From Psychromonas sp. B3M02 (lineage in GTDB: Bacteria; Pseudomonadota; Gammaproteobacteria; Enterobacterales; Psychromonadaceae), in NCBI RefSeq assembly GCF_003318165.1, contig NZ_QOCB01000110.1, positions 1-64,000 of the forward strand: a stretch of 64,000 nt of DNA, written 5' to 3'. The notes beneath the pieces were generated by a model. It was not told the origin of the DNA, did no database searches, and saw only the letters and a list, made by a program, of their open reading frames with translations. The position numbers were made by a program, and so were the translations under genes. This document shows, one piece after another, positions 13,963 through 63,056 of the stretch; position 1 is the first letter of the stretch, and each line of letters starts with the position of its first letter.

Positions 13963-16029
13963 ATGTCACATGAAAATTTATTGATTGAGTTGGGTACTGA
14001 AGAGTTACCACCGAAATCACTTCGTAAACTTGCTGAATCATTTGCTAGTAATGTTGAAGCAGAATTAGTTAAAGCTGAACTGGCCTTTGATAAAGTTGAA
14101 TGGTTAGCTTCTCCAAGACGTTTGGCTGTAGTGGTTACTAACTTAATAGCGGCTCAAGCCGACAAAATCGTAGAAAAACGTGGTCCAGCAGTGAATGTTG
14201 CCTTTGACGATACTGGTGTAGCGACTAAAGCTGCACAGGGTTGGGCACGCTCTAACGGTATTAGCGTTGAACAAGCTGAACGTTTAGTGACTGATAAAGG
14301 TGAATGGTTATTGTTTAAATCATCGGTTAAAGGTCAAGAAATCAGCGAATTAATCCCTGGGATCGCTGCTACTGCTTTAAGTAAGTTGCCTATTCCTAAA
14401 CCAATGCGTTGGGGTAGTGAAAGCACGCAATTTATTCGTCCTGTACACACGGTAACTATGCTATTTGGTAGCAAACTAATCCAAGGTGAGCTGTTGGGTG
14501 TTGCGTCAGACAGAGTAATCAGAGGTCATCGTTTCCTAGGTGAAGCGGAGCTTACTTTAAACCATGCAGATAATTACCAATCACTACTAGATGATTCAGG
14601 TAAAGTGATCGTTGATTATGAGCGTCGTAAAGCTATTATCCGTGAGCAAGTAGAAGCCGTTGCTGCGCATGAAAATGGCGTCGCCGCGATAGATGAAGAG
14701 CTACTAGAAGAAGTAACATCATTAGTTGAATGGCCTGTTACACTGGTGGGTTCTTTTGAAGAGAAATTCTTAGACGTTCCTTCTGAAGCGCTTATCTACA
14801 CAATGAAAGACAACCAAAAATACTTCCCAGTATTAGATAAAGAAGGCAATTTATTACCTCGCTTTATCTTTGTTTCAAACATTGTTAGTCGTGATCCTAA
14901 ACAGGTTATTTCAGGTAATGAGAAAGTAGTTCGCCCTCGTTTAGCTGATGCTGAGTTCTTCTTTGAAACAGATAAAAAGAAAACATTAGAAAGCCGTTTA
15001 GACTCTCTATCAACTGTATTATTCCAAAAACAACTGGGTACATTGAAAGAGAAATCTGAACGTATTAGTAAAGTTGCTGCAAAAGTTGCGGCTAAAATTG
15101 ATGCTAATACTGAGCATGCACAACGTGCAGGTCTATTATCTAAAGCTGATTTAATGTCTGAAATGGTAATGGAATTCCCTGACGTTCAAGGTGTAATGGG
15201 AATGTATTACGCTCGTTTTGATGGTGAACATGAAGATGTTGCTGTTGCATTAAACGAACAATACTTACCACGTTTTGCTGGTGATAAACTACCAACTTCA
15301 TTAGTTGCTTGTGCCGTATCTTTAGCTGATAAACTAGATACATTAGTGGGTATCTTTGGTATTGGTCAAGCACCTAAAGGTGATAAAGACCCGTTTGCTT
15401 TACGTCGTGCAGCTATCGGTTTATTACGTATTATCACGGATAAAGGCTTAGATTTAGATATTGTCGATCTAGTTGAAATCGCTAAAGTACAATACGCTGA
15501 TAAATTAACTAACGATAATGTGGTTAACGATGTTGTTGATTTCTTATTCGCTCGTTTCCGTGCGACTTACCAAGCTGGTGGTTATTCAGTTGAGTTAATT
15601 CAATCTGTTTTAGAGCGTCGTCCTACTAAACCTGTAGACTTCGAAAAACGTATTAAAGCAGTAGCTAAGTTCCAAACTTTACCAGAAGCTGCACCTATTG
15701 CTGCTGCAAATAAGCGTATTAGTAATATTCTTGCTAAGGTAAATGATGAAATTAACAGTAAAGTTGATGCAAATTTACTCCAAGAAGACGCTGAAAAAGC
15801 ACTTTCTGAAATTTTAGAGGCTCTAGAAAGCAAGCTAAGCCCTTTATTTGAAGAAGGAGACTACGAGTCAGCCTTATTCGAGTTAGCTAGCTTAAAATCG
15901 CCTGTAGACGATTTTTTCGATAACGTGATGGTAATGGCGGACGATTTGGCTGTAAAAAATAACCGTTTAGCCCTTCTAAACCGTTTACGTAACTTGTTCT
16001 TACAAGTTGCTGATGTTTCTGTTTTGTAA
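13963..16029 (+). CDS. glyS: Glycine--tRNA ligase beta subunit
   Basis: The beta subunit supplies tRNA recognition. The N-terminus [15 protein letters not shown] is typical of the family, an HD-like region and the [19 protein letters not shown] segment lie at about residues 467-485, and the C-terminus has a DALR-type anticodon-binding domain ([21 protein letters not shown]). It has 688 residues, and a hairpin terminator follows. Confidence 0.97.
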
Positions 16030-30534: not shown

Positions 30535-31449
30535 ATGAAAAAAACACTATTAGCAACAGCAATTTTAGCGGGTCTTGTTTCTGCAACGGCTCAATCTGCA
30601 ACTGTATATGATCAAGACGGTACAACACTTAAAATTGGTGGTCGTGCTGAAGTACGTGCTGAGTTTAAAGAGACTGGTGATGGTTCTGTTGTCGATAAAA
30701 GCCGTGCTCGCATTAACTTTGGCGGCAAAACTCAAATTACTGACAACCTAACTGGTTTTGGTTTCATGGAATACCAAATCGAACCTGGTGAAACAGTTGA
30801 TAACCGTTACTTGTTTGCTGGTTTTGGTACATCAATTGGTGATTTCTCTTACGGTCGCCAAGATACTGCTAACGTACAAGTTTCTGATATGACAGATATT
30901 GCTTCTGTTCACTCTGGTTACCAACAAGTATTTGATGCTTCATCTGATAAAGAAAACACAACTTTCTTATATTCAGGTACATTTGCTGATTCAGTAACAG
31001 TGCAAGCTAACTTCACAGGTTCTGATGAAGATGATCAAGATTCTGTTGCTATCTCTGCTCTTTACTCTAGTGACTTCGGTTTAGACCTAGGTATCGCACA
31101 TACAGATGCACAAACAGATGAAACGCAAACTACGTTAGCGGCTGCTTACTCTGTTGGTGGTTTCTACGGTGCAGCTTCATACGCAACGGGTGATGCATTC
31201 AACGACGCAGACGAAATCTCTGACATGACCTCTATCGAGATTGCATTACAATACAAATTGACTAAGCAATTCCGTATGATCGGTATGATTGTTCAACAAG
31301 AGATTGACGATGTAGATACTGAAGACTTTTACGCTGTTGAAGGTCAATACCGTTTCAACAAATCAATCCGTACTTACGTAACTTACCAATTTAATCAAAT
31401 TGATGATGCAGAAGACTCTTTAGTAGCGGGTATCCGTTACAACTTCTAA
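30535..31449 (+). CDS. Gram-negative general porin (OmpU/OmpH-like)
   Basis: This is an outer-membrane beta-barrel. It has a classic signal peptide (MKKTLLATAILAGLVSATAQSA, cleaved after about residue 21) and a mature part with alternating amphipathic strands. An acidic composition rich in D and E is typical of marine bacteria, and the terminal residue is phenylalanine (AGIRYNF), as needed for BAM recognition. The 304 residues are slightly short for a 16-strand porin. Substrate specificity cannot be read. A long leader of about 220 bases separates it from mnmE. Confidence 0.88.
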   Translation: MKKTLLATAILAGLVSATAQSATVYDQDGTTLKIGGRAEVRAEFKETGDGSVVDKSRARINFGGKTQITDNLTGFGFMEYQIEPGETVDNRYLFAGFGTSIGDFSYGRQDTANVQVSDMTDIASVHSGYQQVFDASSDKENTTFLYSGTFADSVTVQANFTGSDEDDQDSVAISALYSSDFGLDLGIAHTDAQTDETQTTLAAAYSVGGFYGAASYATGDAFNDADEISDMTSIEIALQYKLTKQFRMIGMIVQQEIDDVDTEDFYAVEGQYRFNKSIRTYVTYQFNQIDDAEDSLVAGIRYNF

Positions 31450-31474: not shown

Positions 31475-31506
31475 TAAAATCCTGGGTATTTACCTGGGAT
31501 TTTTTG
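31475..31506 (+). terminator. Terminator of the porin gene
   Basis: AAATCC and GGGTA pair with TACC and GGGATTTT around a small internal mismatch, followed by a T-rich tract, 26 bases past the stop. Confidence 0.7.
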
Positions 31507-31817
31507 TTTGCGCTTATTATTCATCACCTTTTTAGCTGCTAATTAACCACTCTCCACCAGCGAATAGTTGTCTTTTTATACTGTCATCCCTTTTGGTCTA
31601 GTAAATGCCCCATTCAGTGTTTTTAATTTGTGAGAGATCGACCATTGCCTATAGAGGTTATTGCATTATTTAAACTTAGTTTAATGCGCTTTAATCTGAT
31701 TTATTTTAGATTAAGTTATTGTTATTTAATGGTTTGTTTGTTTCTTGTTCTTCTCTGTAAGATAAAATCGTATTTTAAACACCATTATTCATTAGGAAAA
31801 GGTCGTATTATTTATCT
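31507..31817. other. Gap upstream of the CsrB-type RNA
   Basis: I see no protein gene here. The only open frame (31630-31854) has no good ribosome-binding site and runs into the RNA gene. A UvrY/GacA-type half-site lies at 31629-31646. TATTAT at 31806-31811 is a plausible -10 box without a good -35, as is common for activator-dependent promoters. Confidence 0.5.
31629..31646 (+). promoter_or_regulatory. Candidate UvrY/GacA (VarA) binding half-site
   Basis: TGTGAGAGATC at 31629-31639 matches the left half of the 18-bp E. coli UvrY palindrome TGTGAGAGATCTCTTACA exactly; the right half is degenerate. It lies about 180 bases before the predicted RNA start, similar to the distant UvrY site at E. 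coli csrB. Confidence 0.5.
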
Positions 31818-32202
31818 CGCAAAGGGGAAATGCTTTACAGGATGTAAACAATGACCCGATGTATTGCTAGGATGGCAATTAGGACCTCTCAGGATGAGAG
31901 TTTATAAAACAGGATGTTTTATAATTAGGGAAAGCAGGACACTTCAGGATGAAGTTATTAGTGACTACTAGGATTGTGGTTATTAAGCCAGGATGGCAAA
32001 GAAGGACACCTCCTAAGGAAAGGGAGATGACGGGTAAACAGGATGTTTATCTAATAAGGATATAAACAAGGATGAGCCCAAAGGATTTGGGAAGTGGACG
32101 CCTAGTATGGCATTAGTCAAAAGGATGTAACGCAGGGAGCATCAACTATCACGGACTAGATAGATAAGACTAAAATAAGGGCAGCTTCGGCTGCCCTTTC
32201 CT
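31818..32202 (+). ncRNA. csrB: CsrB-type regulatory RNA that sequesters CsrA
   Basis: About 385 bases contain 22 GGA motifs from 31840 on, mostly as AGGA or CAGGATG. At least eight sit in the loops of short perfect hairpins: TTTACAGGATGTAAA (31834-31848), ATTGCTAGGATGGCAAT (31863-31879), CTCTCAGGATGAGAG (31886-31900), AAAACAGGATGTTTT (31906-31920), CTTCAGGATGAAG (31942-31954), GCCAGGATGGC (31987-31997), TAAACAGGATGTTTA (32035-32049) and CCCAAAGGATTTGGG (32077-32091). This is the architecture of CsrB/CsrC/RsmZ RNAs that titrate the translational regulator CsrA. E. coli CsrB is about the same length. The 3' end is a strong intrinsic terminator. The 5' end is estimated from a TATTAT box at 31806 and may be off by 10-20 bases. 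Confidence 0.92.
32177..32202 (+). terminator. Terminator of the CsrB-type RNA
   Basis: AAGGGCAGC-TTCG-GCTGCCCTT is a stable UUCG-capped 9-bp stem followed by TCCTGTTTCTG. Confidence 0.93.
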
Positions 32203-32256
32203 GTTTCTGTAACATTCAAAATTCCAATCGAATAAACTTCAATGCTCAAATACCTA

Positions 32257-33174
32257 TTATTTTCTCTGTAATTGATGCTTTAAACTTGCTTCTAGTAACT
32301 CATATTGAAAGGTAAACCCAGCCTCTAATAGCTTAGTTGGACGTACATTAGTACTTGAAAGCAATAACGCCTTACCCATTTCAGCAAACAACAATTCAAC
32401 CATAAATGCTGGTAAGGGTAAGATACAAGGCCGGTTTAATATATTGGCTAAAATCACAGAGAAATTACGGTTAGTTACTGGGTTAGGGGAAACGAGGTTA
32501 ACTGGGCCTGATAACTCCGCATTACGCATAATAAATAAAATAGCATTAACCTGATCGGTTAAGTCTATCCAACTCATGATTTGCTTACCTTGCCCTATTT
32601 TACCTCCTACACCCATCCTAAAAGCAGGTAGCATTTTAGCTAATGCACCCTCTTGTTTATCTAATACAATGCCAGTACGTAAGTTAACTACCCTAGTCTT
32701 ATTGGTGTTGACTTTATGGCTGGTTTGCTCCCATTGCGCTGCTAATTGGCTAACAAATTCATCTCCCTGTGACGAACTCTCATCAACAGGTTGTTGGCCA
32801 CTATTACCATAAAAACCAATGGCAGAAGCACAAATAAACAAACTCGGTGGTGTCTCGCTGTTATTAATGAAATCAACGATCAATTGTGTTGACTGAATGC
32901 GACTATCGGTTATTTTCTGTTTAACTGTTTCAGTCCAACGTGCATTAGCTATGTTTTCACCAGCTAAGTGAATTATGATGTCCGGTTGAGGCGCTGAGTT
33001 GAGGTATATCTCTTGTTGGTCAATCAACCAATAAGGTTCTGTTTCACTGACAGTACGTTGTAATTTATAAACTTGGTATCCCTGTGAGGTTAATAAAGGC
33101 ACTAAAGATCGACCGATTAACCCTGTTGCCCCAGTAATCAATACTTTTTGTTTTGTTTCAGCTTGTTGACTCAT
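32257..33174 (-). CDS. yfcH: TIGR01777-type sugar-nucleotide epimerase-like protein (YfcH)
   Basis: This is an extended short-chain dehydrogenase fold protein of unknown substrate. The NAD(P)-binding motif VLITGATGLIGRSLVPLL is at about residues 11-28, with DIIIHLAGENIANARWTE and SAIGFYGN (catalytic tyrosine) following. A C-terminal block with NLVSPNPVTNRNF and the DUF1731-like end (STNVRPTKLLEAGFTFQY) is typical. It has 305 residues. The gene is divergent from pabA. Confidence 0.88.
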   Translation of the reverse strand: MSQQAETKQKVLITGATGLIGRSLVPLLTSQGYQVYKLQRTVSETEPYWLIDQQEIYLNSAPQPDIIIHLAGENIANARWTETVKQKITDSRIQSTQLIVDFINNSETPPSLFICASAIGFYGNSGQQPVDESSSQGDEFVSQLAAQWEQTSHKVNTNKTRVVNLRTGIVLDKQEGALAKMLPAFRMGVGGKIGQGKQIMSWIDLTDQVNAILFIMRNAELSGPVNLVSPNPVTNRNFSVILANILNRPCILPLPAFMVELLFAEMGKALLLSSTNVRPTKLLEAGFTFQYELLEASLKHQLQRK

Positions 33175-61223: not shown

Positions 61224-63056
61224 ATGTGCGGTATCGTTGGTGCAATTGCGCAAAGAGAAGTATCTGAAATCCTAATCGAAGGTCTAAAAAAATTAGAATA
61301 TCGTGGTTACGATTCTGCCGGCGTTGCTGTTGTTGATAGCGAAGGCAAATTAACTCGTGTACGTCGTTTAGGTAAAGTGAAAGAGCTAGCCGATGCCGTT
61401 GATGAAATGCATACAATGGGTGGTACTGGTATTGCACATACTCGTTGGGCTACACACGGTGAACCATCAGAAGCGAATGCACACCCACATGTTTCTGCCA
61501 ACATCTCTATCGTACATAACGGTATTATTGAAAATCACGAACCATTACGTGCACTATTGCAAGAACGTGGTTACATCTTCAATTCACAAACCGATACAGA
61601 GGTCATTGCACACTTAGTTGAATGGGAATTAAGAAGTTCTGCATCATTACGTGAAGCTGTGCAAAAAACCGTATTACAGCTTGAAGGTGCTTACGGCATG
61701 GTTGCGCTTGATAGCCATGACCCATCTCGTTTAGTCGTTGCTCGTTCAGGTAGCCCATTAGTTATTGGTCACGGCATTGGTGAAAACTTCCTAGCCTCTG
61801 ATCAGTTAGCGTTATTAAACGTAACACGTCGTTTCACTTACCTTGAAGAAGGTGATGTCGCTGAAATTACACGTCGAGAAGTGGCTATTTTTGATAAAAC
61901 AGGTAATGCCATTGAACGTGAAATGGTTGAATCAAATGTTGAACAAGATGCGGGTAGCAAAGGTAAATACCGTCATTTCATGCAAAAAGAGATTTTTGAA
62001 CAGCCAAGCGCACTAATCAGTGCTTTAGAAGGCCGTATTAATGACGATAGTATTGTTGTTGAAAGCATTGGCAATGGCGCAAAAGAAATCCTAGCGAAAG
62101 TACAACATGTGCAAATCATCGCCTGTGGTACTTCATACAATTCAGGTATGGCGGCTCGTTACTGGTTTGAGTCATTAGCTGGTGTCAGTTGTGATGTTGA
62201 AATCGCTTCTGAGTTCCGTTACCGCGACTTTGTAGTACGTCCAAACAGCTTATTATTAACCCTTTCTCAATCAGGTGAAACCGCTGATACGTTAGCAGCT
62301 TTACGTTTAGCGAAAGAAAAAGGTTACATGTCAGCAATGTCTATTTGTAACGTATCAGGTTCTTCATTGGTACGTGAGTCTGACCTTGCATTCATGACCC
62401 GTGCTGGCACAGAGATTGGCGTAGCATCAACCAAAGCCTTTACTACACAACTTGCTGCAATGTTGATTCTAGTTACTGCGATCGGTAAAGAGCAGGGCAC
62501 AATCAAACCAGAGAAAGAAGCTGAAATTGTTAAATCACTTCACTCATTACCAGCACAAATAGAAAAAGCCCTAGAGTTTGATAAAAAAATTGAAGCACTA
62601 GCAGCAGATTTTGCTGATAAACATCACACACTCTTCCTAGGTCGCGGTGAATACTACCCAATTGCAATGGAGGCCGCGCTTAAAGTAAAAGAGATCTCTT
62701 ACATCCACGCAGAAGCCTATGCAGCAGGTGAATTAAAACATGGCCCGTTAGCGTTAGTAGATGCGGATATGCCAGTTGTTGTGGTAGCACCGAATAACGA
62801 CTTATTAGAGAAACTAAAATCAAACGTAGAAGAAGTGCGAGCGCGTGGTGGTTTACTGTATGTATTTGCTGATGAGAATTCAGGTTTTGAACCTTGCGAT
62901 GGAATGAAAATCATCTCATTACCGCATGTAGACCCAATTATTGCACCGATTTTCCATACCGTGCCAATGCAATTATTGTCATACCACATTGCCCTAATCA
63001 AAGGTACTGACGTAGACCAACCACGCAACTTGGCTAAGGCTGTTACGGTTGAATAA
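61224..63056 (+). CDS. glmS: Glutamine--fructose-6-phosphate aminotransferase (isomerizing)
   Basis: GlmS makes glucosamine-6-phosphate, the entry to peptidoglycan and LPS precursors. The N-terminal glutaminase starts with the catalytic Cys ([20 protein letters not shown]; the initiator Met is removed). Two SIS sugar-isomerase domains follow ([38 protein letters not shown]), and the end is [13 protein letters not shown]. It has 610 residues. It stands alone, without glmU. Confidence 0.97.

Follow-up and report, generated by a model that had tools for sequence, protein, structure and literature searches.

A well-supported CsrB-family small RNA gene conserved in the genus Psychromonas

RNAs of the CsrB family carry GGA motifs at which numerous CsrA dimers are bound, which relieves CsrA control of mRNAs; they are switched on by the BarA/UvrY system. 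In E. coli, decay of CsrB is under the control of CsrD and RNase E, and csrB occupies another location than the slot between a porin gene and yfcH, near mnmE, that is described here for Psychromonas. Boxes of the UvrY type were published for E. coli csrB (TGTGAGAGATCTCTTACA, centred at -183/-182) and for Salmonella csrC (TGTGAGACATTGACCATT) (PMC4682653). Multiple copies preceded by such boxes occur in Shewanella oneidensis (CsrB1/CsrB2, PMC3171408), and Vibrio carries several sibling RNAs per genome (CsrB1-4, PMC6262261), some of them adjacent; Psychromonas resembles both in these respects.

The window analysed here comprised 64,000 nucleotides of Psychromonas sp. B3M02 (NZ_QOCB01000110.1, positions 1 to 64,000). 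Its stretch 31818-32202 (+) is almost certainly a csrB gene, an ordinary and well-supported addition to a known RNA family, recognizable by its anatomy, its family match and its conservation in the genus. An Rfam scan of the whole window returned a single above-threshold match, RF00018 (CsrB) at 31845-32208 (E 4.2e-17), which took in the entire model (positions 1-356). One argument against the assignment is that the score barely exceeded the gathering score (71.6 versus 71 bits), a difference from other members of the family. The initial annotation had proposed a CsrB at 31818-32202 and a covariance search as its check; the full-length match bears out the identity and the coordinates were accurate, 31818 lying 7 nt past the -10 hexamer. 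It had also spoken of "its CsrB", which was right as to family but not as to number: since the genome holds a second copy (see below), this is a CsrB and not the CsrB. No ORF of at least 60 codons inside the RNA appeared in the ORF list of the window, and a literature search found no paper describing a Psychromonas CsrB. The gene and its neighbours are as follows.

30535..31449, + strand: OmpC/OmpF-like porin gene, flanking, outside the RNA (NCBIfam OmpC/OmpF, 62 bits, far under the cut-offs of 484 and 583)
31818..32202, + strand: CsrB-family small RNA, ~380-385 nt, 23 GGA motifs (RF00018 match, GGA and hairpin counts, fold z, identity versus flanks)
32257..33174, - strand: yfcH, TIGR01777 oxidoreductase, convergent neighbour (TIGR01777, 324 bits)

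The porin gene displayed a terminator-like hairpin of its own (31476-31503), upstream of the csrB promoter, so that the porin and csrB transcripts look separate.

Richness in GGA was the most conspicuous trait of the locus. The 385 nt contained 23 GGA triplets on the + strand, against a mean of 2.6 per 385 nt on the + strand of the window and at most nine in any other stretch of that length on either strand; among 1000 dinucleotide shuffles of the locus the count averaged 13.2 and never exceeded 22. Of the 23 triplets, 12 fell within hairpins of four or more pairs or at their edges (shuffles: mean 3.0, maximum 9), and nine of the 12 sat in the loop of a well-defined stem with five pairs or more. 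The fold as a whole was likewise stable (minimum free energy -113.1 kcal/mol, z -5.5), none of the shuffles being as stable. The initial annotation had recognized the GGA richness, with a count of 22 that falls one short, and had noted at least eight short hairpins with GGA in the loop. Several GGA hairpins are also a property of E. coli and Salmonella csrB, as of RF00018 in general. Those of the present RNA, taken from the hairpin count and the fold, are:

31835..31849, + strand: GGA-loop hairpin TTTACAGGATGTAAA
31863..31879, + strand: GGA-loop hairpin ATTGCTAGGATGGCAAT
31886..31900, + strand: GGA-loop hairpin CTCTCAGGATGAGAG
31902..31924, + strand: GGA-loop hairpin TTATAAAACAGGATGTTTTATAA
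31941..31955, + strand: GGA-loop hairpin ACTTCAGGATGAAGT
31958..31986, + strand: GGA-loop hairpin TTAGTGACTACTAGGATTGTGGTTATTAA
32010..32026, + strand: GGA-loop hairpin CTCCTAAGGAAAGGGAG
32032..32052, + strand: GGA-loop hairpin GGGTAAACAGGATGTTTATCT
32078..32092, + strand: GGA-loop hairpin CCCAAAGGATTTGGG

A search of the genome with RF00018 uncovered the second csrB copy (G000:C142:44850-45227), which scored 56.7 bits, under the Rfam cut-off, and displayed the same promoter box, GGA hairpins, 3' domain and terminator. It sits between an antiporter-like frame and a protein of ~217 residues (L002:1235-1870). Since this neighbourhood is common to several relatives, both csrB loci look old. The surroundings of the two Psychromonas loci (mnmE/porin/yfcH and the antiporter-like gene) differ from those in Vibrio and Shewanella as far as they were compared.

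Alignment of these two copies served to locate the upstream box, and the signals bounding the RNA are:

31629..31646, + strand: predicted UvrY/SirA/GacA-type box TGTGAGAGATCGACCATT (comparison of the two csrB copies)
31806..31811, + strand: putative -10 hexamer TATTAT (from the sequence)
32177..32198, + strand: intrinsic terminator AAGGGCAGC-TTCG-GCTGCCCTT, followed by TCCTGTTTCT (terminator scan)

The block TGTGAGAGATCGACCATTGCCTA (31629-31651) was identical upstream of both copies; the leading 18 bases of this block are the counterpart of the UvrY/SirA inverted repeat. Relative to the putative start at 31818, which was placed seven bases after TATTAT, the box is centred at -181/-180, in keeping with the published geometry of ~180 bp upstream in E. 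coli and Salmonella (PMC4682653). Among 27 Psychromonas csrB copies in which the distance was measured, 24 had a value of -176 to -180; the automatic measurement gave -153 to -165 for the other three, in at least one of which the wrong -10 was probably picked. The right half of the box is poorly palindromic, a point against the csrB assignment, although Salmonella csrC displays nearly the same sequence. A search for TGTAAGN6CTTACA, the strict palindrome, in which three mismatches at most were allowed, missed this box and yielded sites no commoner than expected by chance. Elsewhere in the window, a near-perfect UvrY-like palindrome (TAAAAGAGATCTCTTACA, 62686-62703) occurred inside a 610-residue frame reading as glmS; it was set aside as probably a coding coincidence.

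Closer to the RNA, the element CGTATTATTTATCTCGCAAA at the -10 region was conserved across csrB loci. Inspection of the sequence upstream of TATTAT revealed no good -35, which would fit an activator-dependent promoter. Between box and promoter, the best IHF-like site had one mismatch and the DNA is AT-rich; no claim is therefore made for IHF. At the other end, the UUCG-capped terminator pointed out by the initial annotation was indeed present and was kept in Psychromonas copies; like the 3' motif GCAGGGAGCA, an intrinsic terminator is shared with E. coli and Salmonella csrB.

Conservation followed the RNA closely. The order mnmE - porin - csrB - yfcH - pabA - argD recurred in another Psychromonas sp. 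(NZ_JAPNXS010000014.1), with identities of 98% for MnmE, 97% for the porin and 90% for YfcH, which supports the initial annotation's guess at a Psychromonas relative. Compared with the matching genome G018, the nearest relative, identity was 97.3% in the RNA body and 95.8% in the 3' domain, versus 75.8% for the leader, 64.4% for the stretch before the box and 80.4% for that after the terminator. This bears on two other readings of the region. According to the first, it would belong to a protein-coding gene, as its leader or 5' part; one candidate is a 74-codon frame beginning with GTG, which does exist at 31630-31854. That frame runs over the promoter but ends no more than 37 nt into the RNA; the conservation peak coincides with the RNA and not with the frame; and several stops interrupt it in the nearest relative despite well-aligning DNA, which we take as refuting. 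The frame is thus not a gene, and the leader reading retains practically no probability. The initial annotation was right to call it false but had laid it over the RNA, whereas it mostly covers the promoter.

According to the second reading, the locus would be a GGA-rich look-alike devoid of sponge function, for instance a decaying copy backed by the other csrB locus. A second copy does exist, at G000:C142:44850-45227, and copy redundancy is known in Vibrio (PMC6262261). Decay is difficult to reconcile with 97% identity in the RNA body and 96% in the 3' domain against 64-80% in the flanks, with an intact box, -10 and terminator, and with a slot maintained across much of the genus; we consider this reading highly improbable and retain a csrB gene.

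The 3' part of the RNA displayed a distinct organization:

32114..32172, + strand: 3' multibranch domain (RNAalifold, covariation)
32114-32118 / 32168-32172, + strand: outer helix TAGTC/GACTA (RNAalifold: four pairs)
32132-32140, + strand: GC-AGGGA-GC hairpin, inside the outer helix (RNAalifold)
32146-32163, + strand: hairpin CTATC-ACGGACTA-GATAG, inside the outer helix (RNAalifold)

When supplied with 29 copies from Psychromonas and related families and no structure, RNAalifold recovered the outer helix (AGUC/GACU, four pairs), the GC-AGGGA-GC hairpin and the GGA hairpin. With the structure named, 96.0% of cells were paired and 26 double changes were counted, versus 6.0 in shuffles. Covariation was mostly found in the inner GGA hairpin, which is present in some form in the Rfam model. 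The outer helix showed double changes at two pairs only, so that its support is moderate; this UAGUC/GACUA closing helix is missing from the RF00018 structure line and is the second difference from that family. The junction domain (UAGUC/GACUA around GC-AGGGA-GC and the covarying GGA hairpin), would lack a counterpart in the Rfam model and be common to CsrB of Psychromonas and some related marine families; that its role might go beyond providing further CsrA sites, for example by taking part in decay or by capping the structure, is a tentative and rather doubtful suggestion.

The 3' domain was also useful in surveying the genus. Applied with the stricter filter settings of a run over more than 40 genomes, the Rfam model found no csrB match in five of the 23 other genus genomes. 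A covariance model restricted to the 3' 96 positions and trained on 20 Psychromonas copies matched all 24 genus genomes; since many of these had also supplied training copies, the fair test is provided by the five missed with Rfam. All five displayed a match in the yfcH-pabA slot, lying between a porin and yfcH-pabA in four (G001, G005, G006 and G021) and with mnmE, yfcH and pabA nearby in the fifth (G017). The loci of G005, G006 and G021, which were read fully, contained 20-22 GGA in 410 nt together with a UvrY-type box. The initial annotation had made conservation of the GGA motifs in related genomes a test of its proposal; the GGA-rich RNA proved conserved throughout the genus, and often occupies the same mnmE/porin - yfcH-pabA slot.

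Like the genomes of E. coli and Salmonella, that of Psychromonas sp. B3M02 encodes the partners of a Csr system, with CsrA (TIGR00202, 99.6 bits), UvrY (NF007018, 399 bits) and BarA (NF008318, 1208 bits) all over the curated cut-offs; a CsrD-like protein matched over its full length at 520 bits, short of its cut-off of 663. The locus 31818-32202 has the sequence elements that CsrA sequestration requires. By analogy with the family, a long noncoding RNA under BarA/UvrY control would start at about 31818, run rightwards and end at the terminator near 32200; through its abundant AGGA/GGA motifs, some nine of which sit in short hairpin loops, it would bind several CsrA dimers and so draw CsrA off its mRNA targets.

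These data place the Csr switch, with CsrA, BarA, UvrY and two csrB genes, in Psychromonas-type marine bacteria. They further indicate that the Rfam cut-off is marginal for this genus, one copy passing by 0.6 bits, its sibling falling below and several relatives being missed. The conserved position, together with the promoter box and the 3' domain, provides annotators with handles for finding missed csrB copies.

Adjacent tandem csrB copies, spaced ~700-850 nt, were encountered in several relatives: five consecutive ones at G032:C1:4533806-4536939, three at G010:C4:38734-40688 and two at G034:C19:21563-22609. The sole tandem repeat found in the window itself, a 12-bp unit in 3.2 copies at 15069-15107, lies within a long open frame.
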